Shown here piece by piece: positions 8,113 through 31,295 of a DNA stretch of 33,707 bases; within the stretch, counting starts at the first letter, position 1, and the number at the start of each line of letters is the position of its first letter. Where the stretch lies: contig CAMUJH010000047.1 of NCBI GenBank assembly GCA_947089145.1, positions 1 to 33,707 on the forward strand. The letters are read 5' to 3'. The position numbers and the translations under genes were made by a program. The notes under the pieces were generated by a model. It did no database searches, was not told where the DNA came from, and saw only the letters and a list, made by a program, of their open reading frames with translations. This DNA is from an uncultured Hungatella sp. GTDB taxonomy: Bacteria; Bacillota; Clostridia; Lachnospirales; Lachnospiraceae.

Positions 8113-8158
8113 CATAGTAGGTGATAGGTGCTATAATTTCACCTATCAAATCAATAGG
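8104..8158. promoter_or_regulatory. nested inverted repeats, probable Rrf2 operator
   Basis: TGATAGGTG (8122-8130) and CACCTATCA (8140-8148) form a perfect 9-bp dyad whose 9-nt centre contains the -10 box. It is flanked by ACCTA (8104-8108) with TAGGT (8118-8122), and by CCTAT (8142-8146) with ATAGG (8154-8158). So one half-site type occurs five times over the promoter. The third gene of the operon encodes an Rrf2 regulator, which makes autorepression the natural reading. The assignment to that protein is inferred. Confidence 0.75.
8109..8137 (+). promoter_or_regulatory. sigma-A promoter of metY-cysK-rrf2
   Basis: TTGACA (8109-8114) and TATAAT (8132-8137) are both perfect consensus hexamers with a 17-bp spacer. 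Transcription should begin near 8144 and leave a leader of about 40 nt before the metY start. So strong a promoter would be expected to need repression, and it is overlaid with inverted repeats. Confidence 0.92.
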
Positions 8159-8183
8159 CAAAAAATGGAAAGGAAGTATGATT

Positions 8184-9477: not shown

Positions 9478-10419
9478 ATGAGCAATATTTTTACATCTGC
9501 CGATCAGCTGATCGGAAAAACCCCTCTTCTGGAGCTGACACATATTGAAAAAAAATTGGGGCTTAAGGCAAAGGTAGCCGCCAAGCTGGAGTATTTCAAT
9601 CCGGCAGGTTCTGTAAAAGACCGTATTGCCAGGGCGATGATAGACGAGGCAGAGGCTGCAGGCAAGCTTACGGCCAATACGGTGATTATTGAACCCACAA
9701 GCGGCAATACGGGTATTGGCCTTGCATCCGTGGCCGCGGCAAGAGGCTACCGGATCATTATTGTAATGCCAGAAACCATGTCTGTGGAGCGCAGACAGCT
9801 GATGAAGGCCTACGGTGCAAAACTGGTGCTTACGGAAGGCTCCAAGGGCATGAAGGGAGCTATTGCCAAGGCCCATGAGCTTGCTGCCGGGATGCAGGAC
9901 AGCTTTATTCCCGGTCAATTTGAAAACCTTGCCAACCCGAAGGCCCATAGAGAGCATACAGGCCCCGAGATATATGAAGATACAGACGGCAAAGTGGATA
10001 TTTTTGTGGCAGGTGTGGGTACAGGCGGAACCATTACCGGCGTGGGGGAATATCTCAAATCCAGGAATCCGGACATCCGGATAGTTGCCGTAGAACCGAA
10101 GACATCTGCAGTCCTTTCTGCCGGCGTGGCCGGAGCCCACAAGATTCAGGGCATTGGCGCAGGCTTTGTCCCTGCTGTCCTCAACACAGGCATCTATGAT
10201 GAGATTATTCCGGTTTCCGATGAAGATGCTTTCTCTACCAGTAAGCTGATCGGCAAAAGCGAAGGGATTCTTGTGGGGATCTCCTCTGGTGCAGCGGCCT
10301 ATGCAGCCATTGAGCTGGCAAAGCGCCCGGAAAATCAGGGGAAGACCATCGTTGTTTTGCTGCCCGATACCGGTGACAGATATCTGTCCACTCCCCTGTT
10401 TACCGAGGAGAAAAAGTGA
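9478..10419 (+). CDS. cysK: cysteine synthase A (O-acetylserine sulfhydrylase)
   Basis: A 313-residue PLP enzyme making cysteine from O-acetylserine and sulfide. Lys47 in NPAGSVKDR carries [15 protein letters not shown] is the substrate loop, and [16 protein letters not shown] is the phosphate-binding glycine loop. The sequence from [20 protein letters not shown] onward is a textbook CysK start. The ribosome site AAAGGAGG lies in the last codons of metY, so the two are translationally linked. With metY and rrf2 it forms a sulfide assimilation unit. Confidence 0.96.
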
Positions 10420-10420
10420 G

Positions 10421-10840
10421 ATGATGATTTCAACAAGAGGGAGATATGCGCTGCGGGTAATGATTGATCTGGCAGAGCATGTCCAGGACGGATACACCCC
10501 TATGAAAATAATTGCCCAGAGACAGAACATCTCTCTGAAATATCTGGAGCAGATCCTTCCCCCGCTGACGAAAAGCGGCATGATTGAAGGCTTACAGAGA
10601 AAGGGCGGAGGATATCGGCTGACAGCCAATCCGTCTGCTTATCGGGTAGGCGATATTCTGCGGCTGACAGAGGGGGATCTGGCGCCGGTGGCCTGTCTTG
10701 GCCGCGGGGCAGAGGCATGTGAGCGTGCCGGATACTGTAAGACGTTACCCATGTGGAAGGAATTCTACAAGATGACCAATGCATATTTTGACGGAATAAC
10801 GTTGTCAGAACTGATGAAAGAAGAACCCTCTGCTTTGTGA
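10421..10840 (+). CDS. Rrf2 family transcriptional regulator of sulfur assimilation
   Basis: A 139-residue Rrf2 protein. The N-terminus MMISTRGRYALRVMIDLAEH is the family start. A winged helix follows, with ISLKYLEQILPPLTKSGMIE and the RKGGGYRL wing. Three cysteines in ACLGRGAEACERAGYCK (spacing 8 and 6) sit where IscR-like members bind an Fe-S cluster. CymR-type proteins lack that cluster and instead bind CysK. ATG 10421 lies one base after the cysK stop, with GAGGAG 10 nt upstream. Its place after cysK and the operator-like dyads on the operon promoter indicate an autoregulated cysteine or Fe-S sensor. Whether it senses through a cluster or through CysK is open. Confidence 0.9.
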   Translation: MMISTRGRYALRVMIDLAEHVQDGYTPMKIIAQRQNISLKYLEQILPPLTKSGMIEGLQRKGGGYRLTANPSAYRVGDILRLTEGDLAPVACLGRGAEACERAGYCKTLPMWKEFYKMTNAYFDGITLSELMKEEPSAL

Positions 10841-11004: not shown

Positions 11005-11400
11005 TTACAATTCCTTTTTATTTTCCGATCCCGGAGTGGTGACGATCACTTTATGGGGAGTAATAATAAGGGCTCCCTTTGCGGTTGCGGCACCGTTGAA
11101 CATCTTTTCTACCATGGCTTTAAAGGCATCAACAGCTGGGCCTTCAGTGATATACTGGGCCTCGCCTTTGATTTGATATCCTTCCAGGCTTTTAGCATCA
11201 TATGCGGAAATGGCAATTCTGCCGTTGCCGTCCTTGATATTTTTTAATGTAGTCTCCAGAAAAACATCCCCTACAAGCAGCTTTCCGTCTTCTGTCACAT
11301 CTTTAAAAGCGACCGGAACCACGTTGGGTTCATTGTCAAGGCAGGTGGCTAAATCCCACATATTCTCTTTCAGCAGCTTTGTTACATGTTCGTTCAGCAT
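11005..11400 (-). CDS. pyridoxamine 5'-phosphate oxidase-like FMN split-barrel protein
   Basis: A 131-residue small flavoprotein fold. After MLNEHVTKLLKENMWDLATC come the FMN-barrel strands NVVPVAFKDV and KLLVGDVFLETTLKNIKDG, then RIAISAYDAKSLEGYQIKGEA. This pattern is typical of stand-alone PPOX-like proteins that bind FMN or F420. They are rarely true PdxH enzymes; the length is half that of PdxH. It is divergent from an HxlR regulator, a pairing often seen with redox- or electrophile-responsive genes. It has its own promoter, and AGGAGG lies just upstream of its ATG. The substrate is unknown. Confidence 0.88.
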   Translation of the reverse strand: MLNEHVTKLLKENMWDLATCLDNEPNVVPVAFKDVTEDGKLLVGDVFLETTLKNIKDGNGRIAISAYDAKSLEGYQIKGEAQYITEGPAVDAFKAMVEKMFNGAATAKGALIITPHKVIVTTPGSENKKEL

Positions 11401-11444
11401 AAGTTGACCTCCTAATCAAAATGGAATGTTTGTTTGATGGCCTT

Positions 11445-11473
11445 ATTATAGAAAATAGGCTTCCAAAGGACAA
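11445..11473 (-). promoter_or_regulatory. promoter of the FMN-barrel gene
   Basis: On the minus strand TTGTCC (11468-11473) and TATAAT (11445-11450) are 17 bp apart, leaving a leader of about 38 nt before the start codon at 11400. Confidence 0.7.
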
Positions 11474-11495
11474 GATATTAAGAAATTTATTATAA

Positions 11496-11513
11496 ACTAT
11501 TAAATTTCATAGT
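11496..11513. promoter_or_regulatory. ACTAT-N8-ATAGT dyad, possible HxlR operator
   Basis: ACTAT (11496-11500) and ATAGT (11509-11513) form a dyad between the two divergent promoters. It resembles the ACTAT...ATAGT half-sites known for the HxlR members YodB and CatR of Bacillus, but with a longer centre. From this place one dimer could repress both genes. The arms are short, so support is moderate. Confidence 0.45.
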
Positions 11514-11516
11514 AAC

Positions 11517-11545
11517 TTGCCCGAATATAGGAAAAGCCATATAAT
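11517..11545 (+). promoter_or_regulatory. promoter of the HxlR gene
   Basis: TTGCCC (11517-11522) and TATAAT (11540-11545) have a 17-bp spacer, giving a leader of about 70 nt before the HxlR start. Confidence 0.7.
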
Positions 11546-11624
11546 AAAAGGGAAGCAAAGCTGACTGCCCAAATAGGCGGCTGGATAAAAAGGGCAGAAA
11601 TAGAAAAAAGCCGGGAGGAAGCAT

Positions 11625-12020
11625 ATGTATCAGAAAAAGATGGCTCAGGATATTCGCTGTCCTTTGGAGTACGGCCTTGAAATATTTGGCGGGAAATGGA
11701 AGCCCAGGATTATCTGCGTGCTAAATGAAAAGAAGATTCTGCGGTACAGCGGAATCAGGAAAGAGATGACCAATATAACGGACGCAGTGCTGGCAGCCGC
11801 TTTAAAAGAACTGATCCGAGATGGCATTGTGGAGAGAAAGTCCTATGATGAGGTGCCGCCCAGGGTAGAGTACAGCCTGACAGACAAAGGAATTTCCGTG
11901 GTTCCTATTCTGCAGAGCATCTGTGCCTGGTCTGGCATCTTCCGCAAAAGCGGCAGTGATCATGTGCTGGCACAGTGTGAAAAATGCGATTATAATGGTG
12001 CGGCTGCCAGGAGGACGTGA
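11625..12020 (+). CDS. HxlR family transcriptional regulator
   Basis: A 131-residue winged-helix regulator. CPLEYGLEIFGGKWKPRIIC is the HxlR signature, with its N-terminal Cys11 matching the redox-active Cys6 region of YodB. Next come the recognition helix (ITDAVLAAALKELIRDGIVE) and the wing (YDEVPPRVEYSLTDKG). Four further cysteines lie in the C-terminal part, including CEKCD. GGGAGGAAG precedes ATG 11625. It probably represses itself and the divergent FMN-barrel gene, responding to electrophiles or redox stress; the signal is inferred. Confidence 0.92.
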   Translation: MYQKKMAQDIRCPLEYGLEIFGGKWKPRIICVLNEKKILRYSGIRKEMTNITDAVLAAALKELIRDGIVERKSYDEVPPRVEYSLTDKGISVVPILQSICAWSGIFRKSGSDHVLAQCEKCDYNGAAARRT

Positions 12021-12069
12021 CAGGAGACAGGACGCAGAGCGATACGTCTGATTTGCAAAAAAGGAGTTT

Positions 12070-12783
12070 CTATAATACAGAAAGCATGTTATAAAGTTTC
12101 AAAAGCCGGATGTCGTCCTTGGATACTTTTAATTTCTTTAAAAGAGCGGCATCCTCCCGCAGCCGCATTCTTGAGAAAAGCATCTTCATGGCAATGGGCA
12201 TCATAGGACGGGTAGAAAAGCCGTTCCACAGTCCCCACTTGGTGTCGGAGCTTAAATATGAGGCCAGGATCTGGACACTGGCCTTTTCCATGGGGCTGTC
12301 CTGATTGGTCAGCTGGATATTGGTCAAGGCATCATAATGCTCAATATATCCCCAGTAAGTATTTTCACAGATCTGATAGTGATCATAGTCATTTAAATTC
12401 ATATACATCATAATTTTATATCCAGAGACATCCGATTCTGAAAGAATATCAAAAACACAGCGGATTAGCTGATTGTTTCTTCCATCAAACAGATAGGAGT
12501 AAAACTGTGACAGCCCCATAAAAAAGGAAGGACAGGCAGCAGAAGGCTGAGGCTGGGCGGCGATGGTCGGAAGGTAGTAAAAAAAGTACTCAATGTGTAC
12601 ATGGAGGGCCTGGGCTATAAGGTACAGAGTCTCAACGTCCACGGGAATCTCACCTTTTTCATATTTGGAAATGGTGGATTTGCTTTTTCCGATGATCTGC
12701 GACATCTCTTCCAGAGTGATCTTGTTTTGTTTGCGGCATGCCCGTATCTGCCTGCCAACCAAAGCGCTGGTTTCGTTGGTCAT
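12070..12783 (-). CDS. XRE family regulator with a C-terminal sensor-like domain
   Basis: A 237-residue protein. Residues 5-65 are a lambda-repressor-type helix-turn-helix (GRQIRACRKQNKITLEEM, then IGKSKSTISKYEKGEIPVD, followed by LYLIAQALHVH). The remaining roughly 160 residues are mostly helical, carry several Tyr and Met residues, and match no family I can name. They could bind a small ligand or mediate oligomerisation. It starts behind AAGGGGG and is transcribed away from the C-S lyase operon. The 235-bp gap between them holds the operon promoter and an 8-bp dyad, so it is the likely regulator of that operon (inference from position). Confidence 0.85.
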   Translation of the reverse strand: MTNETSALVGRQIRACRKQNKITLEEMSQIIGKSKSTISKYEKGEIPVDVETLYLIAQALHVHIEYFFYYLPTIAAQPQPSAACPSFFMGLSQFYSYLFDGRNNQLIRCVFDILSESDVSGYKIMMYMNLNDYDHYQICENTYWGYIEHYDALTNIQLTNQDSPMEKASVQILASYLSSDTKWGLWNGFSTRPMMPIAMKMLFSRMRLREDAALLKKLKVSKDDIRLLKLYNMLSVL

Positions 12784-12940
12784 ACCTGTTTCCCCCTTAA
12801 AAAGTGCATATAAATCAACAAAGCGGCGATTTTTGTTAGTTTTTACAATTTCTTTTATATCTTACCATATATCAAGGGAAAATTCCATGTAATACGAAAA
12901 AAAATAAAAATTTTTCTACTGACAGTGGAAATCTGTATTT

Positions 12941-12969
12941 TTGATTTTACGCTTTTATTTTGATACAAT
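12941..12969 (+). promoter_or_regulatory. promoter of the C-S lyase operon
   Basis: TTGATT (12941-12946) and TACAAT (12964-12969) with a 17-bp spacer, 50 bp before the first start codon. The -10 box is embedded in the dyad at 12959-12981. Confidence 0.75.
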
Positions 12970-12981
12970 CCACGTATCAAA
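12959..12981. promoter_or_regulatory. TTTGATAC-N7-GTATCAAA operator
   Basis: Perfect 8-bp arms (12959-12966 and 12974-12981) straddle the -10 box and start site. A protein bound here would block the promoter. The divergent XRE gene is the obvious candidate partner, though this is inferred only from position. Confidence 0.7.
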
Positions 12982-13018
12982 GAAAAATCTCCAAAAAGAG
13001 AGGAAAAGGGGTAGAAAA

Positions 13019-14239
13019 ATGTACGATTTTGATGAAGTTATTGACAGACAACACACAAACGCTATGAATACTGACGGTTTTCGAAGCTACATATTCCATG
13101 CAGACGAGAATATGACCTTTCCGTATAAGGATGAGGAGTTTATCCGGATGTGGGTGGCGGATATGGAATTTGCCACGCCGGATGTGGTCATTGACGGAAT
13201 GAGGAAGCGTCTCGACAAGCGGATCTTCGGATACACCAGAGTGTTTGAGAAAGGCTATTACGATGCGTTCCTTGCCTGGTGCAAAAGACGGTATGGCTGG
13301 GTATTTCCAAGGCAGGAGCTGGTGATGTCCAACGGAATTATTCCTGCCCTGTATGAACTGGTGGAATACATCTGCAAGCCGGATGAAAAAGTACTGTTTT
13401 TGACCCCCTCCTATGCGTATTTTAAATATGCCGCAGAGTTCAGCAAAAGGGATTATGTCTGCTCAGACCTGCGGTATGAGGACGGGCAGTATTCCATTGA
13501 TTTTGAAGATTTTGCGGCAAAGGCAGCTGAGGAGAAAAATACCCTGCTGATTCTGTGTAATCCACACAACCCAAGCGGACGGGTGTGGACAAAAGAGGAA
13601 CTGGAAAGGCTGGCAGAGATTATTCAGAGGAACAGCTTGTGGGTTATTTCCGATGAAATCCATTGTGACCTGCTGCGCAGAAACCAGAGACACATTCCAT
13701 TGGGCCTGGTAATGCCGGACTACCAGCGCCTTGTAACTTGCATGGCTCCCAGCAAGACTTTTAATCTGGCAGGAATGATGATTTCCAATATTATCATCCG
13801 CGACCAGGGGCTGCGGGCAGTCTGGCTTGACCGCCACTATAATTTTGACAACCCGATTAGTATCGCCGCAGCCCAGGCGGCTTATGAAAAAGGAGAACCC
13901 TGGCTGGAGGAGCTGAGGATTTACCTGGATGAAAATTTCCGATTTGTAGGGGAGTACCTGAAAGAGAATCTGCCAAAGGCAAAATACCAGCCGTCTCAGG
14001 CGACTTATCTGGCATGGGTTGACTTAAATGCTTACTTTGAGCCGGATGAGACGCTGCCCTTGTTCTTTGCTTATAAAGCAGGCGTTCTTCTGGAAGGCGG
14101 AAATATGTTTGTACAGAATTCAGACGGCTTTATTCGGCTAAACCTGGCCTGTCCAAGGGCAACTCTGGCAGAGGGGTTAAGACGGATCTGTGAGGCGGTG
14201 AATACGAGGCACACAGAAAAGTATGTGGGAGAGAATTAA
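13019..14239 (+). CDS. patB: MalY/PatB-type cysteine-S-conjugate beta-lyase (copy 1)
   Basis: A 406-residue fold-type I PLP enzyme of the MalY/PatB group. The subgroup hallmark MWVADMEFATP lies near residue 45. CNPHNPSGRVWTKEEL is the central loop, VISDEIHCDLL carries the PLP-pyridine Asp, and Lys246 in MAPSKTFNLAGM forms the Schiff base. These enzymes beta-eliminate cystathionine, cysteine and S-substituted cysteines to a thiol, ammonia and pyruvate via 2-aminoacrylate. ATG 13019 follows AGGAAAAGGGG; upstream in-frame codons would lie in the promoter. First gene of a six-gene operon. The symbol is family-level; the preferred S-substituent is unknown. Confidence 0.9.
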   Translation: MYDFDEVIDRQHTNAMNTDGFRSYIFHADENMTFPYKDEEFIRMWVADMEFATPDVVIDGMRKRLDKRIFGYTRVFEKGYYDAFLAWCKRRYGWVFPRQELVMSNGIIPALYELVEYICKPDEKVLFLTPSYAYFKYAAEFSKRDYVCSDLRYEDGQYSIDFEDFAAKAAEEKNTLLILCNPHNPSGRVWTKEELERLAEIIQRNSLWVISDEIHCDLLRRNQRHIPLGLVMPDYQRLVTCMAPSKTFNLAGMMISNIIIRDQGLRAVWLDRHYNFDNPISIAAAQAAYEKGEPWLEELRIYLDENFRFVGEYLKENLPKAKYQPSQATYLAWVDLNAYFEPDETLPLFFAYKAGVLLEGGNMFVQNSDGFIRLNLACPRATLAEGLRRICEAVNTRHTEKYVGEN

Positions 14240-14327
14240 ACCGCATGAACGTCTGGGCTTCTCTGCTGCAGAATGATGGAAAAATAAATGGTGCAAAGGG
14301 ATTTTGTTCACAAAAAAGGAGAAAGAT

Positions 14328-15671
14328 ATGGCAAAAGAACAGGTAGAGTTAAAACAGGTATTGGGATTTAAGGAACTGTTTACCCAAGCAGTAGGAAACA
14401 TTATCGGTGCTGGAGTTATGACGCTTTTAGGTTCAGCCATTGCGCTGACAGGGCGCTCCCTTCCATTTTCGTTTTTGGTTGCTACATTCATCGTAGTGGG
14501 CTATGCGCTCCCCTATGTCCTTATCTGCAGCGTGGCGCGGGTGAAGGGCGGAACGTATACCATGATTGGAATGCTTGCCGGTACGAGGCTTACCGGTGTG
14601 CAGTGCATTATGAATATTTTGGGCAACTTGGGACTGGGCATGTATGGCTTATCGCTGGCCTCATATTTTATCAGCTTTTTCGGTTTTGGCGATCCCAAGG
14701 TGATTGCATTGATTGCAGTGACGATATTCTATTTATTAAATGTATTTGGCATTGATAAGATGGCAAAGGCGCAGAATGTGATTGTATTGATGCTTTGTGT
14801 GGCGCTTGCTCTATTTGCCGCTTTCGGCATCAGCCATGTGCAGCCGGATTATTTTACCAACGGATTCATGACTGGAGGCTGGATGGGTTTATTCCAGGCA
14901 GGTGCGCTTATGACCAATGCGGTAGCCGGAGCATCCATGATCACGGCATTATCCGGCGAGGCAAAAAATCCCACCAGGGATATTCCGCTGGTTATCATAA
15001 TTGCAACTTTATCAGTATCAATCTTGTATGCCATTATTTCCGTAGTTGCGGCGGGTGTACTTCCGGTAGAGCAAGTGGCTGGGGAAAACTTATCCATGGT
15101 GGCCAATATTGTATTATCCAAGCCGCTTTACGTATTCTTTATGGTATTTGGCGCAATGTTTGCGATTATTTCTACCTTAAACGGACAGTTTGCCACAGCA
15201 TCCAGACCTCCGCTGCAGGCTTGCAGAGATGGCTGGTTTCCAGAGTGGATGGGGTATGTGCATCCGAAATTCCGCACGCCGGTAGTGCTGCTGACCATGT
15301 TTTACCTGATTTCTGTATTTACCATTTTATCCGGTTTGAAGATTAGAACCATTGCCAACCTGACCATTATATGCAGCGGAATTACCATATTAATTACCTG
15401 TGTTGCCGTTGTCCGACTGCCAAAGGTGTGCCCTACTGGCTGGAAGCACTCCAAGTTCCGCTGTTCCAATACCGTGCTTATCCTGATTGCCATTTATGCA
15501 ACAGGGGCGGAACTTTTTAATATTTATTTAAATATGAAGCAGCTTTCTCCCAAGATGCTGCTGGGAAATATTGCAATGATCATTGGGGCTGTGGCTTTTG
15601 CCTTTGCACGTTATAAATACACCCATATTACGCCCAGTTATATTGAAAATATGGGGGAAGAGCAGAAATGA
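14328..15671 (+). CDS. APC family amino acid permease
   Basis: A 447-residue protein with about 12 membrane segments. TM1 carries VGNIIGAGVMTLLGSA, the GxG helix break that binds substrate carboxyl and amino groups in the APC fold. TM6 region GASMITALSGEAKNPTRDIP is the second family motif. ATG 14328 follows AAAAAAGGAGAAAG. It lies between a C-S lyase and an amidohydrolase/M20 pair, so its substrate is probably an amino acid derivative such as an S-substituted cysteine or its N-acyl form. Specificity is not visible from sequence. Confidence 0.9.
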   Translation: MAKEQVELKQVLGFKELFTQAVGNIIGAGVMTLLGSAIALTGRSLPFSFLVATFIVVGYALPYVLICSVARVKGGTYTMIGMLAGTRLTGVQCIMNILGNLGLGMYGLSLASYFISFFGFGDPKVIALIAVTIFYLLNVFGIDKMAKAQNVIVLMLCVALALFAAFGISHVQPDYFTNGFMTGGWMGLFQAGALMTNAVAGASMITALSGEAKNPTRDIPLVIIIATLSVSILYAIISVVAAGVLPVEQVAGENLSMVANIVLSKPLYVFFMVFGAMFAIISTLNGQFATASRPPLQACRDGWFPEWMGYVHPKFRTPVVLLTMFYLISVFTILSGLKIRTIANLTIICSGITILITCVAVVRLPKVCPTGWKHSKFRCSNTVLILIAIYATGAELFNIYLNMKQLSPKMLLGNIAMIIGAVAFAFARYKYTHITPSYIENMGEEQK

Positions 15672-15736
15672 ATCAATGAAGCAGTAAAAACGGCAGATAC
15701 AGAAAGACGATCTGATAATGTAAAGGAGGAGAGAAC

Positions 15737-16897
15737 ATGATAAAGATTCAAGGCGGAACCATCCATACTGCAGTAAATAGAGAAGCCTTTCAAGGAGATA
15801 TTTTGATTGATGGAAAAAGGATCAAAAAAATTGGTACAGATATTCCGGAAGAGGCTGAATCCGTTATTGATGCCAGAGGACTGGATATTTTTCCAGGATT
15901 TATTGATGCCCACTGCCATGTAGGCCTGGATGTGTTTGGCGGCGGCCCGGCAGGGATGGAGTTTAATGAAACAAATGACCCGGTTACGCCGCAGCTTCGG
16001 GCCATTGACGGAATTAATCCTTTTGATAAGCACTTGGAGCTGGCACGCAAAGGAGGCGTTACATGCATAGCCACAGGTCCGGGAAGTTCAAATGCCATTG
16101 GCGGAACATTTGCGGCCATTAAGACTTGGGGGAAGCGGGCTGATAATATGATTGTCAAAGATCCCATTGGTATGAAATGCGCTTTTGGAGAAAATCCGAA
16201 AAAATTTTACCAGACAAAGGGAATTTCCAGCCGTTTGACCAATGCAGCCGTTATCCGAAATGCTTTGAAAAAGGCACAGATTTATAAAGAAAAATTGGAT
16301 GCCGCCAGAGGAGACAGGGCGAAATACCCTGCTTATGACCAGAAATCTGAGGCGCTTCTTCCGGTACTTTCCAGGGACATACCGCTTAAAGCCCATGTAC
16401 ATCAGGCAAATGATATTTTCACTGCTCTTCGGATAGCCAAAGAATTTCAGGTGGATATTACCTTGGAGCATGTAACAGAAGGCTATCTGGTAGTAGATGA
16501 ATTGGTGCAGGAAAAAGTAAGTATGGCAGTAGGCCCGTTCTTCTGTTCCGGTTCAAAGCTGGAATTTCAGAATGTCAGCATAGCAAATGCCGGAATTCTG
16601 GCAAATGCCGGGTGCCATGTCTGCCTTATTACAGATGCGCCGCTGATTCCGCTTCAGGGATTGCCGCTGTATGCAGGGATGGCAATAAAAGCAGGAATGG
16701 ATAAATACGAAGCCCTTCGGGCTATTACCATAAATGCCGCTGAACATCTTGGAATTGCAGATCGGGTCGGTTCCCTGGAAGAAGGCAAGGATGCGGATCT
16801 GGTAATTGTCAGCGGTTCTCCGTTTACGGCAATGGGGGATATCCGATACGTATGGATTGACGGAAGACAGGTGGAAGGAATATGTGCAAACTCATAA
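15737..16897 (+). CDS. HutI/prolidase-like metal-dependent amidohydrolase
   Basis: A 386-residue amidohydrolase_1-type enzyme (COG1228-like). It has the N-terminal beta-sandwich, then DAHCH (His59, His61), AHVHQAND (His220, His222), His245 in EHVTEGY and Asp300 in LITDAPL: the full metal set of the superfamily. The C-terminal GSLEEGKDADLVIVSG closes the sandwich. ATG 15737 sits behind AAAGGAGGAGAG. Relatives include imidazolonepropionase and Xaa-Pro or acyl-amino-acid dipeptidases. In this operon it could open a cyclic derivative or release the amino acid from a dipeptide such as a cysteinylglycine conjugate. Both are inferences. Confidence 0.85.
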   Translation: MIKIQGGTIHTAVNREAFQGDILIDGKRIKKIGTDIPEEAESVIDARGLDIFPGFIDAHCHVGLDVFGGGPAGMEFNETNDPVTPQLRAIDGINPFDKHLELARKGGVTCIATGPGSSNAIGGTFAAIKTWGKRADNMIVKDPIGMKCAFGENPKKFYQTKGISSRLTNAAVIRNALKKAQIYKEKLDAARGDRAKYPAYDQKSEALLPVLSRDIPLKAHVHQANDIFTALRIAKEFQVDITLEHVTEGYLVVDELVQEKVSMAVGPFFCSGSKLEFQNVSIANAGILANAGCHVCLITDAPLIPLQGLPLYAGMAIKAGMDKYEALRAITINAAEHLGIADRVGSLEEGKDADLVIVSGSPFTAMGDIRYVWIDGRQVEGICANS

Positions 16898-16950
16898 AAA
16901 GATAAAGTGCAGTGACAGCAATTCATTAAAAATATAAGGAGGCAATAAAA

Positions 16951-17319
16951 ATGAAGTTAATTAACACAGAAAAAGCGCCAGGGGCAATCGGGCCGTACTC
17001 TCAGGGATTTGAGGTAAACGGGGTAATTTACACTTCCGGGCAGATACCAGTAAACCCGGAGAACGGGGAAATACCAGAGGGAATTGCCCTGCAGGCGGAG
17101 CAGAGCTGCAAAAATGTAGGGGCAATTCTGGATGCTGCAGGAAGCAGCCTTGCAAAAGTATTTAAGACCACCTGTTTTTTGGCGGATATGAGAGACTTTG
17201 CGGCATTTAATGAGGTTTATGGAAAATATTTCGTGTCAAAGCCGGCAAGAAGCTGCGTGGTGGTGAAGACCCTGCCTAAGGGTGTACTGTGCGAGATAGA
17301 GGCTGTGGCAGAGACATAA
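16951..17319 (+). CDS. ridA: RidA family enamine/imine deaminase
   Basis: A 122-residue YjgF/YER057c/UK114 protein. It keeps the catalytic set: Tyr16 in GPYSQGF, the GVIYTSGQIP strand, Arg100 in PARSCVVV, and Glu116 in CEIEAVAE. That pattern belongs to the active archetypal RidA subgroup, which hydrolyses 2-aminoacrylate to pyruvate and ammonia. The start lies behind AAGGAGG. Its presence between two C-S lyases fits well, because those enzymes release 2-aminoacrylate, which otherwise inactivates PLP enzymes. It is the only RidA gene in the window. Confidence 0.95.
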   Translation: MKLINTEKAPGAIGPYSQGFEVNGVIYTSGQIPVNPENGEIPEGIALQAEQSCKNVGAILDAAGSSLAKVFKTTCFLADMRDFAAFNEVYGKYFVSKPARSCVVVKTLPKGVLCEIEAVAET

Positions 17320-17374
17320 TCCAGAAGACATATGTTCAGGGATGAAAACAGGATTGAGTGATTAGAAACATAAG

Positions 17375-17413
17375 GGCCAGGCCATGATTGCACCACTGCA
17401 AATTGTCCTGGCC
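17375..17413 (+). promoter_or_regulatory. intra-operon hairpin
   Basis: GGCCAGG (17375-17381) pairs with CCTGGCC (17407-17413), with an inner TTGCA/TGCAA stem around CCAC. AATTCTTAATT follows, which is too poor in T for a good terminator. It lies in the widest gap of the operon (155 bp, between ridA and the M20 gene). It may attenuate or stabilise the upstream message. Confidence 0.5.
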
Positions 17414-17474
17414 AATTCTTAATTAAAGGATAAGAGACAGCGGCTTACGAAGATGCATGGGAAGGAGAAAAACA

Positions 17475-18659
17475 ATGGAGCTATCCAGGATAAAGGAACT
17501 TTCTGTAAAGTATCAGGAGTACATGGTTAAGATGCGGAGGGAATTTCACTGCCATCCGGAACTTTCTGGGGAGGAGTACCATACAAGGGATATTCTGGTT
17601 CGGGAAATCGAAGCAATGGAGCTGCCCTATAAGCTGTTAAAAGGAACGGGGCTCATTGCAGTGATTGAAGGGAAAAAGCCAGGAAAGCACAGGGTGATCC
17701 GTGCGGATATGGACGGGCTTCCTGTGAAAGAGGAGATCTGCAATTTAAAGCAGCCCAAGGCCTGCGTGTCCAAGATTGACGGCGCTTGCCACGCCTGCGG
17801 CCATGATGCCCACATGGCAGTGCTTTTGGGGACGATGAAAGTACTGACCCAAATCAGAGACGAAATGGAAGGCACGGTGTACTGCTGCTTTGAGGAGGGC
17901 GAAGAGACAAACTGCGGAATAGAAACTATGTTGGAAATGCTGGAGGAATACCCTATTGATGAATGCTTTGCGCTCCATGTGTACAGCGGGCTGGATGCCG
18001 GAAAGGTGAATATTGTCCCAGGACCCAGGATGGCGGGAACAGTGGGCATTGGATTTCATGTAAAGGGAAAAGCAGGCCATGGCTCCAGGCCGGATCAGGC
18101 GGCAAATCCCATTGTGCCGGCAGCCCATATTATTACCCAGATCGATTCGGCATTTTTAAATCAGATCAATGCAGAGGAAACCGTTACCTTAGGGATTTGC
18201 GTGTTCCAGGCCGGAGAAACCACCAATGTTATCCCGGATGACGCCTATATTGGAGGGACGGCACGGTACTTCAATAAAGAAGAGGGGGAGAAAGCACTGT
18301 CTATTATTAATATGGTTGCCGAACATACTGCTGCCTGCCATAAATGCACCATAGAGTTTACACAGAGAAATAAAATCAGCCTGCTTCCAGTGGTGAATGA
18401 TGCAGGTGTTGCCGGCCGGGTGCAGGAAATGGCCGGAAAAATCTGCGGTATAGATGTTCTGGGAGAATGTGACCGATGGTATGCTTCAGAATGTTACAGT
18501 ATGTATCTGGAAAAATATCCAGGTGCGCTGGGATTTTTAGGAATCCGAAACAAAGACTACGGCAGCGGTGCGGCGCACCATAATGGAAAATTTGACATTG
18601 ATGAGAGTTCTCTGTATTTAGGCGTGTGTGCAGAAATTGGGTTTGTGTTGAGCAAGTAG
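17475..18659 (+). CDS. M20 family N-acyl-amino-acid amidohydrolase
   Basis: A 394-residue M20D-type peptidase/deacylase. FHCHPELSGEEYHTRD is the typical N-terminus. The metal ligands are in CHACGHDAHMAVLLG and the catalytic EEGEE, and the lid domain begins near GKAGHGSRPDQAANPI. The C-terminal GAAHHNGKFDIDE completes the site. Members include hippurate hydrolase, N-acetyl-diaminopimelate deacetylase and the N-acetylcysteine-conjugate deacetylases of Bacillus sulfur operons. No signal peptide, so intracellular. ATG 17475 follows GGAAGGAGAA. The next gene is a C-S lyase 20 bp away, which favours removal of an N-acyl group from an S-substituted cysteine. Confidence 0.92.
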   Translation: MELSRIKELSVKYQEYMVKMRREFHCHPELSGEEYHTRDILVREIEAMELPYKLLKGTGLIAVIEGKKPGKHRVIRADMDGLPVKEEICNLKQPKACVSKIDGACHACGHDAHMAVLLGTMKVLTQIRDEMEGTVYCCFEEGEETNCGIETMLEMLEEYPIDECFALHVYSGLDAGKVNIVPGPRMAGTVGIGFHVKGKAGHGSRPDQAANPIVPAAHIITQIDSAFLNQINAEETVTLGICVFQAGETTNVIPDDAYIGGTARYFNKEEGEKALSIINMVAEHTAACHKCTIEFTQRNKISLLPVVNDAGVAGRVQEMAGKICGIDVLGECDRWYASECYSMYLEKYPGALGFLGIRNKDYGSGAAHHNGKFDIDESSLYLGVCAEIGFVLSK

Positions 18660-18679
18660 AGAAAAAGAGGATGGGTGAA

Positions 18680-19855
18680 ATGGAAAGACAGGAATTTTTA
18701 GATAATTATTTAACGGATCGCCGTGGGACTGACTGCTCTAAATGGGACGGCCTTAAGGCAAAGTTCGGAGAAAAGGATCTGCTTGCCATGTGGGTGGCAG
18801 ATATGGAGTTTAAGACGTGTGACGCCATTACGACGGCTTTGGAGAAGAGGGTCCGCCACGGAGTCTTTGGCTACAGCATTGTGCCGGATCGTTACTATGA
18901 GGTGTATTCCCGATGGATGGAGAGACGATACGGATTTCCGGTAAAGAAAGAGTGGGTGAGATTTTCTACAGGCTGTGTGACTGGCATTTCTTGGATGATC
19001 CATGCGTTTACCAATCCTGGAGACGCCTGCATGATACTGACGCCGGTTTACTACCCATTTCACAATGTGGTAACCAATAATAACCGTATCCTGGTAAAAG
19101 TAGATTTAAAATATCATAACGGCTATTTTACCATGGATTATGATGCGGTTGAAAAGGCGGTTAGGGAGAATCAGGTTAAGATGTTTCTCATGTGCTCTCC
19201 CCACAATCCGGCGGGAAGAGTGTGGACGGAGGAAGAACTGGATCAGGTGCTTGCCATCTGTAGGAGGCACCATGTGCTGGTGGTCAGCGATGAGATTCAT
19301 CAGGATATTGTGTTTAAGGGAAAACGGTTTATTCCGGCGGCTGCAGTGGCAGGCAGGAAGTACAGAGACATGGTGGTAACTCTGAACTCTGCATCGAAAA
19401 CCTTTAATCTGGCGACGCTGATCCATTCCCATATTATAATTACAGATGAGAAGCTGATGGAGGCTTACGATAAGTTTGCATCAGGCCTGAACCGGACAGA
19501 AGTCAGCATCATGGGAATGGAAGCCGCTATGGCTGGTTATGAAAAAGGGGAGGAGTGGCTTGGCTCAGTGCTGAATGTCATCTATGACAATTACTGCTAT
19601 CTGAAAGGAACTCTTGAGAGAGGGCTGCCAGGGGTGCAGGTGTGCTGCATGGAAGGAACTTATCTGCCGATGATTGATTTGAGAGCCTGTGTGGAACCGG
19701 ATAAGGTGCAGGAGTTTGTGCAGAAAAGGTGCCGTCTTGCTGTGGATTACGGAGAGTGGTTTGGAGATGGGTATAAGGGGTTTATTCGCATGAACCTGGC
19801 CACAGATCCGGCCTATGTGAGACAGGCGGCGGAGAGGATGATCAGTCAGGCATAA
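18680..19855 (+). CDS. MalY/PatB-type cysteine-S-conjugate beta-lyase (copy 2)
   Basis: A 391-residue second MalY/PatB enzyme. MWVADMEFKTCDAIT, CSPHNPAGRVWTEEEL, VVSDEIHQDIVFKGK and Lys240 in NSASKTFNLATL mirror copy 1. The active-site surroundings differ: SAS before the lysine instead of APS, and a different N-terminal specificity region. The two therefore probably act on different S-substituents. ATG 18680 is preferred over ATG 18671, because AAAGAGG abuts 18671. It is the last gene of the operon and precedes a strong terminator. Confidence 0.9.
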   Translation: MERQEFLDNYLTDRRGTDCSKWDGLKAKFGEKDLLAMWVADMEFKTCDAITTALEKRVRHGVFGYSIVPDRYYEVYSRWMERRYGFPVKKEWVRFSTGCVTGISWMIHAFTNPGDACMILTPVYYPFHNVVTNNNRILVKVDLKYHNGYFTMDYDAVEKAVRENQVKMFLMCSPHNPAGRVWTEEELDQVLAICRRHHVLVVSDEIHQDIVFKGKRFIPAAAVAGRKYRDMVVTLNSASKTFNLATLIHSHIIITDEKLMEAYDKFASGLNRTEVSIMGMEAAMAGYEKGEEWLGSVLNVIYDNYCYLKGTLERGLPGVQVCCMEGTYLPMIDLRACVEPDKVQEFVQKRCRLAVDYGEWFGDGYKGFIRMNLATDPAYVRQAAERMISQA

Positions 19856-19863
19856 TAGTGGGT

Positions 19864-19906
19864 ATCCCCCTTAGCTGCTGCAGGGACAGCTAAGGGGGAT
19901 ATTTTC
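19864..19906 (+). terminator. Rho-independent terminator of the C-S lyase operon
   Basis: ATCCCCCTTAGCTG (19864-19877) pairs perfectly over 14 bp with CAGCTAAGGGGGAT (19887-19900) around a 9-nt loop, followed by ATTTTCTG. It lies 9 bp after the last gene. Confidence 0.9.
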
Positions 19907-20015
19907 TGCTTTCATATAAGTCTTTTTTTCTCTTCTGTTAAGTCGCAAAAAAACATTCCCATTTCAGACATGCAGATTTATACTGAAAAATAAAAATGCA
20001 GGAGGAATCAACGTG

Positions 20016-20708
20016 ATGGCTCATGATAAAAAGAAATTCTTGACATTCAGTTATGATGACGGCGTGACCCAGGACAAAAGGCTTGTAAAGATCTTTAATA
20101 AATATGGACTGAAAGCAACCTTTAATATAAACTCAGAGCTGCTTGGAACTCCCGGATATTTAAGACGGGAGAACATGTGGATCAGCCACAATAAAATAGA
20201 GCCGGAGGAGGCGGCTCAGGTTTACAGAGGCCATGAAGTGGCAGTCCATACCCTGACCCATCCCCATCTGCCGGAATTGACCGATGATGAAGTCGTACGT
20301 CAGATTGAGGAGGATAGGGTAAACCTGGAGAGGCTTACGTGGCAGAAGGTGGAAGGCATGGCCTATCCCGGAGGAGGGCTTACCCATGATGATCGGGTGG
20401 TGGAGCTTATCAGGACCCGGACAAAAATGCGGTATTGCAGAACCACCATAAGCAGCTACAGCTTTGATGTGCAGAAAGATCTGCTGCAGTTTAAACCCAC
20501 CATATACCACCTGGAATTTGATAAAATGATGGAACTGGGAGAAAAATTTTTATCGCTGAATGCAGAGGATATACAGATTTATTATATTTGGGGACACAGC
20601 TATGAATTTGATTATTATGACACCTGGGACAAATTCGAGCAGTTCTGCAAGATGATGAGCGGACGGGATGACATCTTTTACGGGACGAATAAAGAGGTTC
20701 TTTTCTAA
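20016..20708 (+). CDS. polysaccharide deacetylase family protein (CE4-like)
   Basis: A 230-residue NodB-homology protein. FSYDDG supplies the catalytic Asp and metal Asp (motif 1), and HTLTHPHL supplies the two metal His (motif 2). YPGG near residue 115 replaces the usual RxPY/Y arginine motif, and a late WGHSYEFD resembles motif 5. No signal peptide, so it acts in the cytoplasm, unlike wall-modifying CE4 enzymes. GTG 20013 and ATG 20016 are both possible behind GGAGGA. It lies alone between a terminator and the sugar-binding protein's promoter. It may remove acetyl groups from imported oligosaccharides, linking it to the next locus (inference). Confidence 0.85.
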   Translation: MAHDKKKFLTFSYDDGVTQDKRLVKIFNKYGLKATFNINSELLGTPGYLRRENMWISHNKIEPEEAAQVYRGHEVAVHTLTHPHLPELTDDEVVRQIEEDRVNLERLTWQKVEGMAYPGGGLTHDDRVVELIRTRTKMRYCRTTISSYSFDVQKDLLQFKPTIYHLEFDKMMELGEKFLSLNAEDIQIYYIWGHSYEFDYYDTWDKFEQFCKMMSGRDDIFYGTNKEVLF

Positions 20709-22342: not shown

Positions 22343-25141
22343 ATGACTGTAAAAAAGGTACATTTAATACTGTTTATGGGACAGAGCAATATGGCCGGAA
22401 GAGGCGATGAAAAAGAGGCTCCCGACGTGCCGGAAGGAATGGGGTTTGAATTCCGCCCTGTCACTGCTCCGGATCGCCTGTATCCTCTGAAGGAACCGTT
22501 TGGAAAAGATGAAAATGATATTTTGGGCGTGTATGAGCCTGGGATGAAGACAGGGTCCATGGTATCGGCATTTGTAAATGCCTATGTGGAAGAGACAAAA
22601 ACCCCGGTAGTCGGGGTATCCTGCTCAAAGGGCGGATCTGCCATAGACCAGTGGCTCCCGGGGACTCCATATTATGAGGACGCGGTCCGCCGAATGAAGA
22701 GGTGCGAAGCCTGGCTGCTGGCTCAGGGCATTGAGATAGAACGCCGTCTGATGGCGTGGTGCCAGGGGTGCACAGACGGGGATCTTCACACGGATTCGGA
22801 AGTATACCGGCAGCATACAGCCTGCATGCTCCACGCTTTTATGAAAGAATGCGGCGTAGAGACATGTTTTCTGATTCAGATCGGGAATCACAGGGATGAC
22901 CCGCAGCTTTATGTTCCAATTCAGGAAGCGCAGCAGAAGCTGGCGGATGAGGAAGAACACATTATTCTTGTCAGCCGCCAGTTTGCAGACTTTGCCCGCC
23001 TGGGGCTGATGAAAGATGAATTTCACTATTGCCAGAAGGGCTATAATCTGGTGGGGGAAGAGGCCGGGAGAACTGCGGGGCAGTATATTGCGGCAGAAAC
23101 GAACCAGGCGGGGAAGAATACTTTTATACTGACAAGGAACGTTGTGGTGGAGACAGCCCCAGAGATTGCTAATGAGCCTGTAAAGCGTGCGGTATCACGT
23201 TTTTACCGGGATCTTTCTATGGTGCTGGAGCCGCCGGACAAAGAGGAAGGCAGGGCGGGAAACATATACTTGAGGAAAGGATGTTTTCCAGCAGAAGAAT
23301 TTCATATCTCTGTCAAAAACAGCAAGGACATGGAGATCGCTGCTTCAGAAGAACTGGGATTTATTTACGGGCTTCTCTATATCAGCGAACATTGCCTGGG
23401 AATTCTTCCGTTCTGGTTCTGGAATGACCAGAAGTTTGAAAAAAAGAGGCAGATTGCCATCCCGTTTACCAGGTATGATTCAGAGAAAAGGCCGGTAGCC
23501 TATAGAGGGTGGTTTATTAATGACGAAGTTTTGATCAGCAGATGGAAAGCGGGAAAAAGTGAGGAGTACCCATGGGAAATGGCATTGGAAGCGCTGCTGC
23601 GCTGCGGCGGCAACACGGTAATTCCGGGAACAGACAGCAATTCAAAAAAATATGCAGGATTGGCAGGGAATATGGGGCTGTGGGTTACCCAGCACCATGC
23701 GGAGCCTTTGGGAGCAGAAATGTTTCTGCGGGCTTACCCGGACAAAGAACCTTCGTTCAAAAAGTATCCCCATCTGTTTCGGGAGCTGTGGGTGGAAGGA
23801 ATCAAAAGGCAGATGAACCATAAAATCATCTGGAATCTTGGCTTCCGGGGGCAGGGGGATACTCCCTTTTGGGAGAATGATCCTCAGTATGACACGCCTG
23901 AGAAGAGAGGGCGCCTAATCAGCAGTATTATGAAAGAACAGTATGATCTTGTACGTCAATATGTTTTCGACCCTGTTTTTAGCGCTAATTTGTATGGGGA
24001 AACCATGGAGCTATATCAGCAGGGGCTGATTAGTCTTCCTGAGGACGTGATCATGATCTGGGCTGACAACGGGTACGGGAAAATGGTGTCCAGAAGGCAG
24101 GGCAATCACAACCCCCGCATCCCGGCACTTCCGGACCCTGGGCTAAAAGGCAGAAGGCATGGCGTTTACTACCATGTATCATTCTACGATCTTCAGGCTG
24201 CCAATGTCCTGACCATGATGCCAAATTCCATGGATTTTGTGAAAAAAGAACTGACCTCCGGGTATGACCGAGGCATTACCGCACTGTGGCTTGTGAACTG
24301 TTCCAATGTCAAGCCTCATGTTTATCCGCTTGACTTTGCTGCGGCTTTGTGGAACCGTCTGGACACGGAACCAGAGGAACATCTGGAACAGTACGTGTGT
24401 AACTATTATGGGAATGGTTTTTTGGGAGAGATGAAGGAGTGCTTTAAGGAATATTTTAGGGCTGTTCTCCCCTATGGTGAGAGGGAAGACGAACATGCAG
24501 GCGAGCAGTTTTACAATTATGTAACCAGAATCCTTGCCCATCACTGGATAAAAGACGGAGGGAAGGCAGCGTGTGAGGAACTGAAATGGTGCAGGCCTGC
24601 TGGAACCTTTTCTGAGCAGGTTACATGGTTCGCATTAAAATGCGAAACCGCATATCCGGGATTTGAAAGGCTCCTTGACCGGTGTGCAAGCCTGGCCAGG
24701 GAGCTTAAGGAGGACGGCAGCAGGCTGTGGAAGGACTCTCTGCTTCTTCAAGTAAAGCTCCACGCCTGCTGCCTGGAAGGAGTGCAGCATTTTGGAAAGG
24801 CATACTCTGCATATGAAAACAGCGATTATTTCATGGCCTTTTATGAGGCAGGCCGGGCGGCAGACTGTTTTGATCGGGGCCAGGCAGCCATGGAGGAGTG
24901 CTGTCACGGCAAATGGACAGGCTTTTATGACAATGACTGCCAGACAGATATAAAGGAGACTGCCTACCTTCTCAGGCTGCTGATGGGATATATACGGAAT
25001 CTGGGAGACGGGCCATACTTTTATCAGTGGCAGAGGAGGGTCATTTATCCAGAAAAGGACAGAAAGATCATGCTGCTTTTAAACTATGAGAATCATTTGA
25101 CAGACGAAGAACTGTATCGGGCGATGAGGGAAAAAGAATGA
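22343..25141 (+). CDS. SASA-type acetylesterase / GH115 alpha-glucuronidase fusion
   Basis: A 932-residue two-domain enzyme. Residues 5-250 are a SASA/CE6-like SGNH esterase, with Ser15 in LFMGQSNMAGRG, a GVSCSKGGSAIDQW block, and Asp-x-x-His in KDEFHYCQKGYN. From about 265 to 790 the sequence follows glycoside hydrolase family 115: PVAYRGWFINDE, WVTQHHAEPLGAEMF, YYHVSFYDL, and LWLVNCSNVKPHVYP. A helical end follows. GH115 members remove (methyl)glucuronate from xylan side chains. The usual acidic residue after NVxDxKP is not seen, so GH115 catalysis is uncertain. No signal peptide: it would act on imported oligosaccharides. GGGGAGGGAA precedes the ATG. It overlaps the kinase gene by ATGA. 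Confidence 0.82.
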   Translation: MTVKKVHLILFMGQSNMAGRGDEKEAPDVPEGMGFEFRPVTAPDRLYPLKEPFGKDENDILGVYEPGMKTGSMVSAFVNAYVEETKTPVVGVSCSKGGSAIDQWLPGTPYYEDAVRRMKRCEAWLLAQGIEIERRLMAWCQGCTDGDLHTDSEVYRQHTACMLHAFMKECGVETCFLIQIGNHRDDPQLYVPIQEAQQKLADEEEHIILVSRQFADFARLGLMKDEFHYCQKGYNLVGEEAGRTAGQYIAAETNQAGKNTFILTRNVVVETAPEIANEPVKRAVSRFYRDLSMVLEPPDKEEGRAGNIYLRKGCFPAEEFHISVKNSKDMEIAASEELGFIYGLLYISEHCLGILPFWFWNDQKFEKKRQIAIPFTRYDSEKRPVAYRGWFINDEVLISRWKAGKSEEYPWEMALEALLRCGGNTVIPGTDSNSKKYAGLAGNMGLWVTQHHAEPLGAEMFLRAYPDKEPSFKKYPHLFRELWVEGIKRQMNHKIIWNLGFRGQGDTPFWENDPQYDTPEKRGRLISSIMKEQYDLVRQYVFDPVFSANLYGETMELYQQGLISLPEDVIMIWADNGYGKMVSRRQGNHNPRIPALPDPGLKGRRHGVYYHVSFYDLQAANVLTMMPNSMDFVKKELTSGYDRGITALWLVNCSNVKPHVYPLDFAAALWNRLDTEPEEHLEQYVCNYYGNGFLGEMKECFKEYFRAVLPYGEREDEHAGEQFYNYVTRILAHHWIKDGGKAACEELKWCRPAGTFSEQVTWFALKCETAYPGFERLLDRCASLARELKEDGSRLWKDSLLLQVKLHACCLEGVQHFGKAYSAYENSDYFMAFYEAGRAADCFDRGQAAMEECCHGKWTGFYDNDCQTDIKETAYLLRLLMGYIRNLGDGPYFYQWQRRVIYPEKDRKIMLLLNYENHLTDEELYRAMREKE

Positions 25142-31250: not shown

Positions 31251-31295
31251 GTGGCTGGAGTGCTGGAAAAATAAGTGATGGCGGAGGAATTTATG

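Follow-up and report, generated by a model that had tools for sequence, protein, structure and literature searches.

The operon reported here lies at positions 13019-19855 of a 33,707-nucleotide stretch of DNA from an uncultured Hungatella sp. (the window: bases 1-33707 of contig C47, in a 4.46 Mb assembly of 127 contigs that is 87% complete), and its closest described relatives are bacterial routes acting on S-substituted cysteines. The thioalcohol route of Staphylococcus hominis consists of a POT-family importer (DtpT), an M20A hydrolase (PepV) and a lyase (PatB, here ShPatB) which releases a thiol; in the accessible part of the report its genes are stated to be unclustered (PMC11742315). 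The scm (yxe), ytn and yha clusters of Bacillus subtilis recover sulfur from alkylated cysteine with the participation of an M20-family hydrolase. As far as the accessible texts describe them, these clusters acetylate the substrate, cleave it by a monooxygenase (2SL in related clusters) and then deacetylate N-acetylcysteine (PMC12757645; PMC9706529). FnaPatB1 of Fusobacterium nucleatum animalis (PDB 7qug) is presented, in the sections available, as a single enzyme with high activity on cysteine conjugates with hydrophobic substituents, an activity ascribed to an elongated loop (PMC11203769). Cysteine-conjugate beta-lyase activity of gut bacteria is part of the enterohepatic cycle of host-made conjugates, and the passages available describe it as an activity, with no dedicated operon named (PMC5515271, PMC5534341). 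It is credited there with regenerating thiols from host conjugates and with altering the fate of pollutants (PMC5515271), the benefit to the microbes being called poorly understood (PMC5534341). Open-access work deals with individual lyases, with the S. hominis route, whose genes are unclustered, and with the B. subtilis clusters, and no description of the present gene set was found there; most subscription papers and bioRxiv preprints lay outside that scope, and novelty is provisional.

The operon shares with the S. hominis route an importer, an M20 hydrolase and a PatB lyase of the same wider clade. It differs in that the genes are clustered, the importer is of the APC superfamily and the hydrolase is M20D, and in having a regulator, a second lyase and RidA. 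With the B. subtilis clusters it shares the M20-family hydrolase. Cleavage, however, is proposed to be carried out by pyridoxal phosphate (PLP) beta-lyases after unmasking, and no acetyltransferase, monooxygenase or 2SL was present among the ten genes scanned (11005-20708). A preliminary description of this DNA was therefore right to set it apart from the Bacillus sulfur operons. The reaction proposed is the same as that of the gut beta-lyase activity on host-made conjugates. Sequence comparison shows that the gene set is real, conserved and modular; its core chemistry is very probably the cleavage of cysteine S-conjugates. Uptake and cleavage of such conjugates by the operon are well supported; the import role, the substrates, the order of the steps and the regulation are what we infer. 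That the locus is a dedicated operon for the utilisation of cysteine S-conjugates, with an exchangeable importer, we consider probable.

Searches were made with the M20 protein in 26 genomes of the window's own genus (E 1e-80; four with a match, window included), in 299 genomes of the family (E 1e-130; two, window included) and in 398 genomes of the phylum (E 1e-105; no match beyond the window). CSL1, the first lyase, was used against 11 genomes of the genus of G136 (E 1e-130; three with a match) and 398 genomes of the phylum (E 1e-150; seven, window included), and CSL2, the second lyase, against 397 genomes of the family (E 1e-120; eight, window included). Surroundings were fetched for every other genome matching at those limits. 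The presence or absence of core genes in the related loci was re-tested by tblastn; absence means absence from the fetched stretch, not from the whole genome. A plasmid search with the M20 protein (E 1e-80) gave no match.

The gene set was found in six genomes of one family, namely the window, G025, G136, G725, G226 and G797, which belong to four genera according to the labels of the genomes compared. Conserved synteny had been named as the point to look for, and a divergent XRE-family regulator, CSL1, CSL2 and a transporter recur together in all six loci, with CSL1 as the first gene and CSL2 as the last. RidA is present in five (not G797), M20 in five (not G226), and the amidohydrolase only in the window and G025, which are of the same genus. 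The order in the window is CSL1-APC-amidohydrolase-RidA-M20-CSL2, and in G025 it is CSL1-OppABCDF-amidohydrolase-M20-RidA-small protein-CSL2. G136 and G725 both have CSL1-RidA-M20-YfcC-CSL2, G797 has CSL1-M20-YfcC-CSL2, and G226 has CSL1-antiporter-family transporter-RidA-CSL2. Identities to the window proteins are 80-90% for CSL1, 71-79% for CSL2, 86-93% for RidA, 69-91% for M20, 65-83% for XRE and 67% for the amidohydrolase. The transporters belong to four unrelated families: APC, Opp ABC, YfcC/DcuC (three loci) and the Na_H_antiporter family. Comparison of the six gene orders thus shows a conserved core with a swapped importer, a pattern suggesting that the form of conjugate taken up varies from species to species. 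The same two lyases with four kinds of importer, with or without M20, amount to a natural experiment from which the form of conjugate used by each species could be predicted.

CSL1 (13019-14239, + strand) is a PatB-type C-S beta-lyase by its TIGR04350 score of 362.1 bits (cut-off 340), and matches 7qug at E 3e-209. Its SKTFN motif, at position 245, is taken to carry the PLP lysine. The protein is 72% identical to FnaPatB1 and 49% identical to ShPatB, and shares with FnaPatB1 the long N-terminal loop, with an equivalent of Tyr25. The ShPatB positions 25, 46, 72, 108, 134, 274, 276, 362 and 376, as given in the accessible text of PMC7385124, were mapped by alignment; the numbering offset was set from the sequence, after which all nine letters agreed with that text. 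At these positions CSL1 has Y V Y I Y Y F E R, identical to FnaPatB1 at all nine, and this holds in each of the six operon loci. In the tree FnaPatB1 is sister to the six operon CSL1s (support 100/99); the wider CSL1 clade (100/100) has ShPatB as its outermost row. The Tyr25 equivalent is present in FnaPatB1 and in all 12 CSL1 rows, so that a published statement on this residue is too narrow for the sequences compared, and the Tyr25 pocket of the "odour" lyases extends beyond the odour-forming staphylococci. One row, G000_C1paralog, was disregarded as a very long branch and probably a wrong-frame reading. By homology to FnaPatB1, CSL1 most likely prefers hydrophobic S-substituents.

CSL2 (18671-19855, +) exceeds the same model cut-off of 340 with 386.8 bits and has its SKTFN motif at position 242. 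It is 31% identical to CSL1 by BLAST and forms a separate clade (support 100/99). Neither the elongated N-terminal loop of the FnaPatB1/ShPatB subgroup nor a tyrosine at the place of Tyr25 was seen in its alignments, one of which has gaps there and another different residues. A charged stretch, NRTE, stands near the pocket in the CSL2 of all six operons and in none of four cousins (G162, G731, G165, G255). In the multiple alignment the Arg and Glu of this stretch fall on ShPatB positions 274 and 276, which face the S-substituent, and an Asp falls on 362. This placement is likely but not certain, since the aligners put a gap at different places. We propose that the CSL2 pocket perhaps takes polar or charged S-substituents and so complements CSL1.

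In the scheme proposed, the APC-superfamily amino-acid permease (14328-15671, +; PF13520, 122 bits, cut-off 27; closest solved chains 6f34 and 5oqt) is the candidate importer and would bring in S-substituted cysteine, either free or masked at the amino or carboxyl side. The M20D amidohydrolase (17475-18659, +; TIGR01891, 250 bits, cut-off 153.75), a candidate deacylase or dipeptidase of the conjugate, would, where present, unmask it to the free amino acid. This step would precede the lyase because a PLP lyase needs a free amino group. CSL1 would then cleave conjugates whose S-substituent is hydrophobic, and CSL2 would take another range of substituents, perhaps polar or charged ones; either lyase would yield a thiol and 2-aminoacrylate. 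RidA (16951-17319, +; TIGR00004, 159 bits, cut-off 106) is an enamine/imine deaminase with a PARS motif, the Arg of which is presumably catalytic, and would hydrolyse 2-aminoacrylate, in its imine form, to pyruvate and ammonia. The family calls made earlier for the two lyases, RidA and M20 all exceed curated NCBIfam cut-offs, and that for the permease exceeds the Pfam cut-off. Residues Cys108, His110, Glu143, Glu144, His168 and His369 of M20 are invariant in seven aligned sequences, window included; we take them to be the M20D metal and catalytic residues.

The mask that M20 would remove may be N-acetyl, as in a mercapturate, glycine, as in a Cys-Gly conjugate, or some different acyl or aminoacyl residue. 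A mask of the N-acyl or aminoacyl type would fit, because the PLP lyase requires a freed amino group. In the mercapturate version the substrate would be a host-made N-acetyl-cysteine S-conjugate and M20 its deacetylase, which we regard as possible though somewhat doubtful. Deacylation would have to precede the lyase, and the best solved relative of M20 is YxeP, now ScmP (1ysj; E 2.6e-51, 178 bits, residues 14-382). In three loci M20 stands with YfcC, which scores as a DcuC-type transporter (129 bits) and also matches the AbgT family (40 bits). The namesake of that family imports an N-acyl amino acid, and the presence of YfcC weakly favours acyl amino acids. The relationship to ScmP is distant, however. 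M20 reached no NCBIfam equivalogue cut-off (250 of 500 bits for CpsA carboxypeptidase and 196 of 550 for DoeB2), and no model of an N-acetylcysteine or N-acetylcysteine-conjugate deacetylase matched. The accessible text describes ScmP, YhaA and YtnL, all of the M20 family, as N-acetylcysteine deacetylases, and ScmP as specific for N-acetylcysteine itself, its activity on N-acetyl-S-(2-succino)cysteine being undetectable (PMC12757645). Of the scavenging system for N-acylated conjugates put forward in the preliminary description, the uptake and cleavage of cysteine S-conjugates therefore stands. The N-acylated substrate is only one of the options, because G226 has no M20 in its fetched stretch, the window protein is a generic M20D enzyme, and ScmP has no detectable activity on one S-substituted N-acetylcysteine. 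G226 could import free conjugates.

In a second version the substrate is an S-conjugate of Cys-Gly or of some other peptide, and M20 would be the dipeptidase, possibly aided by the amidohydrolase, as in the body-odour route of S. hominis. CSL1 is in the same clade as ShPatB, whose M20 dipeptidase partner acts on Cys-Gly-3M3SH according to the part of the report available (PMC11742315). The importer of G025 is of the Opp peptide type, and its binding protein scores best with the glutathione binder GsiB, far under the cut-off (212 of 594 bits); this importer points more to peptides such as Cys-Gly conjugates. For the gene set as a whole we think the dipeptide version rather unlikely. PepV is M20A in the same available part of PMC11742315, whereas the operon enzyme is M20D by model score, and no PepV model matched it at E 0.001. 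Nor are the APC and YfcC transporters known to import peptides.

Several observations weigh against a dedicated cysteine S-conjugate operon in general. PatB-type lyases also act on cystathionine and cystine, and little can be concluded about substrate from membership of the APC family. In G226 the 18 kb fetched contain no M20 gene, and in G797 the fetched stretch contains no RidA, so that neither is needed for this type of operon. The pairwise BLAST alignment of CSL1 and CSL2 has its gaps elsewhere than the multiple alignments on which the CSL2 pocket was assigned. The locus is also patchy: orthologues of M20 (at least 73%) were present in 2 of 26 genomes of the window's genus, window included, and in 1 of 298 other genomes of the family sample, and orthologues of CSL2 (at least 70%) in 4 of 397, window included.

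An alternative is a general sulfur amino-acid operon. Cystathionine, cystine or lanthionine would then be the substrates of the lyases, M20 would act on acyl-amino acids or peptides at large, and S-conjugates would be turned over only as side substrates. PatB/MalY enzymes are common users of cystathionine, the NRTE stretch near the CSL2 pocket is charged, and genes for cysteine synthesis stand nearby. Substrates of this kind are given for another Fusobacterium lyase in the available sections of PMC11203769. The identity of CSL1 with FnaPatB1 at 9/9 pocket positions argues the other way, as does the hydrophobic pocket of ShPatB, which the accessible text describes as unfavourable to cystathionine (PMC7385124). 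We judge the general operon unlikely.

The dedicated conjugate operon is the reading retained. In its most specific form it would be an XRE-regulated scavenging operon for host- or diet-derived cysteine S-conjugates in certain gut Lachnospiraceae-like bacteria. It would have a fixed core (one lyase with a hydrophobic and one with a probably charged pocket, and usually RidA) and a front end exchanged between species, made up of an importer and, in some of them, an unmasking hydrolase to match. This form is proposed tentatively and we think it somewhat less likely than not, the doubt over the CSL2 alignment having slightly lowered its probability. If it is true, the operon could serve as a genetic marker for the part that microbes play in the mercapturate/thiol enterohepatic cycle. 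A conserved, regulated operon would also supply a gene set for metagenome searches and knock-outs.

Chance clustering of unrelated genes is highly improbable, given that XRE, CSL1 and CSL2 recur with RidA and M20 across six genomes and four genera, and is conceivable for the amidohydrolase alone: in the flanks (up to 8 kb per side, often shorter) of the best 80 of at least 409 amidohydrolase relatives, no relative of CSL1, CSL2 or RidA was found (0/80).

The amidohydrolase (15737-16897, +) was accordingly rejected as a guide to further operons. A distant M20 (28 and 32%) stood in two of the same 80 flanks. Neighbour clustering, in which 62 of the 80 amidohydrolases were included, showed no constant partner; an OppD-like ATPase (by eye) was the most frequent, at 12 of the 80 loci. 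With no lyases or RidA in the flanks of its relatives and no fixed partner, it is not the gene that defines the operon. Its closest solved chain is 3ooq (E 1.4e-84), which we take to be Thermotoga TM0119. It clears only the general Pfam amidohydrolase cut-offs and carries intact motifs, presumably those of the metal site. The label "HutI/prolidase-like" given earlier does not hold: 62 of 298 bits for HutI and 59 of 500 for Xaa-Pro dipeptidase are both far under the NCBIfam equivalogue cut-offs, and the protein was accordingly filed as neither. As an accessory metal-dependent enzyme it may open or hydrolyse a second masked form. Since it occurs in just two of the six loci, neither a place for it in the route nor the earlier description of that route as "complete" is supported. 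Named relatives among the amidohydrolase matches listed are largely metagenome-assembled genomes of Lachnospiraceae and other Clostridia, many from animal guts, and the host bacterium is probably a gut inhabitant.

The six genes run in one direction on the + strand, as first described, with intergenic gaps of 88, 65, 53, 155 and 11 bases. Co-transcription is inferred from the common strand, the gaps of 11-155 bases, a hairpin at the end and the recurring gene set. The intrinsic terminator-like element (19864-19913, +) contains a GC-rich hairpin at 19864-19900. The region 19850-19930 folds at -34.3 kcal/mol, with a z of -5.1 and none of 200 shuffles as good. The strong terminator claimed is thus confirmed as a stable hairpin, though its T tract is modest and it is missing from the list of the mechanical terminator scan. 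The 155-base gap between RidA and M20 shows no such stability compared with shuffles (z -0.3; 77 of 200 folded as well).

The XRE-family regulator gene (12070-12783, - strand; Pfam HTH_3, 59 bits) is divergent from CSL1. A probable promoter, TTGATT-17-TACAAT, lies between them at 12941-12969 (+). On its own the promoter scan did not exceed the chance level (17 sites against 15.2 expected); a comparable element stands in the aligned upstream regions of relatives. Upstream of the -35 box is a 17-bp dyad, TTCTACT-GAC-AGTGGAA (12914-12930, unstranded), through which the regulator would control the operon. Its counterparts are TTCTATT-GTT-AATAGAA in G025 and TTCCACT-GAC-AGTAGAA in G226, with weaker forms in G725 and G797; G136 and G720 have no clear form, and G695 and G393 no gapped motif. 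The pattern TTCYACTNNNAGTRGAA occurs at one place in its own genome (4,463,145 bases), at 12914-12930, and once in the window at two or fewer mismatches, against 0.27 expected by chance. This distribution fits a single-target regulator acting through the candidate dyad.

The test of the dyad was partly circular, the consensus having been drawn after five upstream regions had been viewed, and the shuffles preserve single-base content only. Among the regions that made the consensus, the window genome (G000) has 13 of 14 letters (0 of 500 shuffles as good), G025 12 (2 of 500) and G725 11 (14 of 500). Of the two that came later, G226 has 13 (0 of 500) and G797 11 (11 of 500). The dyad is unsupported in G136 (10 of 14; 104 of 500) and G720 (10 of 14; 98 of 500). 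A different dyad, TTTGATAC-N7-GTATCAAA, had been offered as the operator. It is exact, at 12959-12981 (unstranded), and overlaps the -10 box. As an operator it fares less well, for 14 of its 16 letters are kept in G025, of the same genus, and only 10-11 in five other upstream regions.

Regulator and first lyase are found together more widely than the whole operon. The 13 CSL1 loci comprise the six operon loci and G720, G695, G654, G699, G615, G393 and G680. An XRE relative (44-83% identity) divergently adjoins the CSL1 orthologue in 10 of the 13, window included, and none was found within 18 kb in G654, G615 and G680. In G695, G699 and G393 the lyase stands beside the regulator without other operon genes. 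This suggests that regulator and CSL1 are an older unit to which importer, hydrolase, RidA and CSL2 were added later. The CSL1 relative of G654 (G654:C1:3365709-3366911) is reported with one TAG inside the match: the gene may have decayed, the sequence may contain an error, or the TAG may stand at the match's end.

Pairing of a lyase with an M20 enzyme has formed repeatedly with other family members, yet is not the rule. G720 has XRE, CSL1 (59%), a different M20 (31%) and a different amino-acid permease. G005 and G006 have a lyase (32% to CSL2), YfcC (53-56%) and M20 (46-47%), and in G255 an M20 (29%) adjoins a CSL2-like lyase (46%) and an amino-acid-type ABC importer. The CSL2-like lyases of G162, G731 and G165 (46-52%) were set aside, as no other operon genes were found in 18 kb except for a 24% aminotransferase-like match in G731. 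As a baseline, 81 PatB-type lyases were collected at E 1e-70 from 80 genomes of the family, three of them from the window's genome. Of the 78 lyases in the 79 other genomes, one, in G053, has a TIGR01891 gene within 5 kb (3.1 kb from start to start), and a limit of 10 kb adds one more, in G071 (8.0 kb). By a rough estimate, about 0.4 lyase-M20 pairs within 5 kb would be expected by chance (103 M20 genes in 79 genomes of about 3 Mb). G071 was rejected because its lyase and M20 lie on opposite strands with about 7 kb between them. The run in G053 (L120 6250-12946) is a different one and contains a transporter-like gene (by eye), a PatB-like lyase (25%), a metal-dependent amidohydrolase other than that of the operon, M20 (30%) and one further gene; the combination of lyase, amidohydrolase and M20 was apparently assembled independently.

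Two of the operon loci have further features. Between RidA and CSL2 in G025 (L093 6435-6815) is a 126-residue reading frame, glutaredoxin-like by eye (GSHLCQDT), which had no Pfam or NCBIfam match at E 0.001. Transposase/TnpB-like frames adjoin the operon in G226 by eye (L131 15428-18000), a possible hint of mobility.

A sulfur cluster ends 2.2 kb upstream of CSL1. It consists of an O-acetylhomoserine/O-acetylserine sulfhydrylase (8121-9470), cysteine synthase A (9478-10416) and an Rrf2 regulator (10427-10837) whose best matches, IscR and CymR, are both under cut-off. Because these genes stand upstream, sulfur released by the operon could feed cysteine synthesis. They were left out of the conserved core because none was seen by eye in the G136 stretch. 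Between this cluster and the XRE gene, at 11005-12020, is a divergent pair encoding a PNPOx-type flavin protein and an HxlR regulator. The same pair lies upstream of the G136 operon (L097 5722-6828), where a thioredoxin gene adjoins the XRE gene. Downstream, 22343-25141 encodes a SASA-esterase/GH115 fusion protein (Pfam), and genes resembling it were seen by eye near the operon in G725 (L107 11194-12030, 16850-18000) and G025 (L122 7652-7999). Far downstream in the window, at 31275-32468, is a second M20-family gene, which is YgeY-like (376 bits, cut-off 321).

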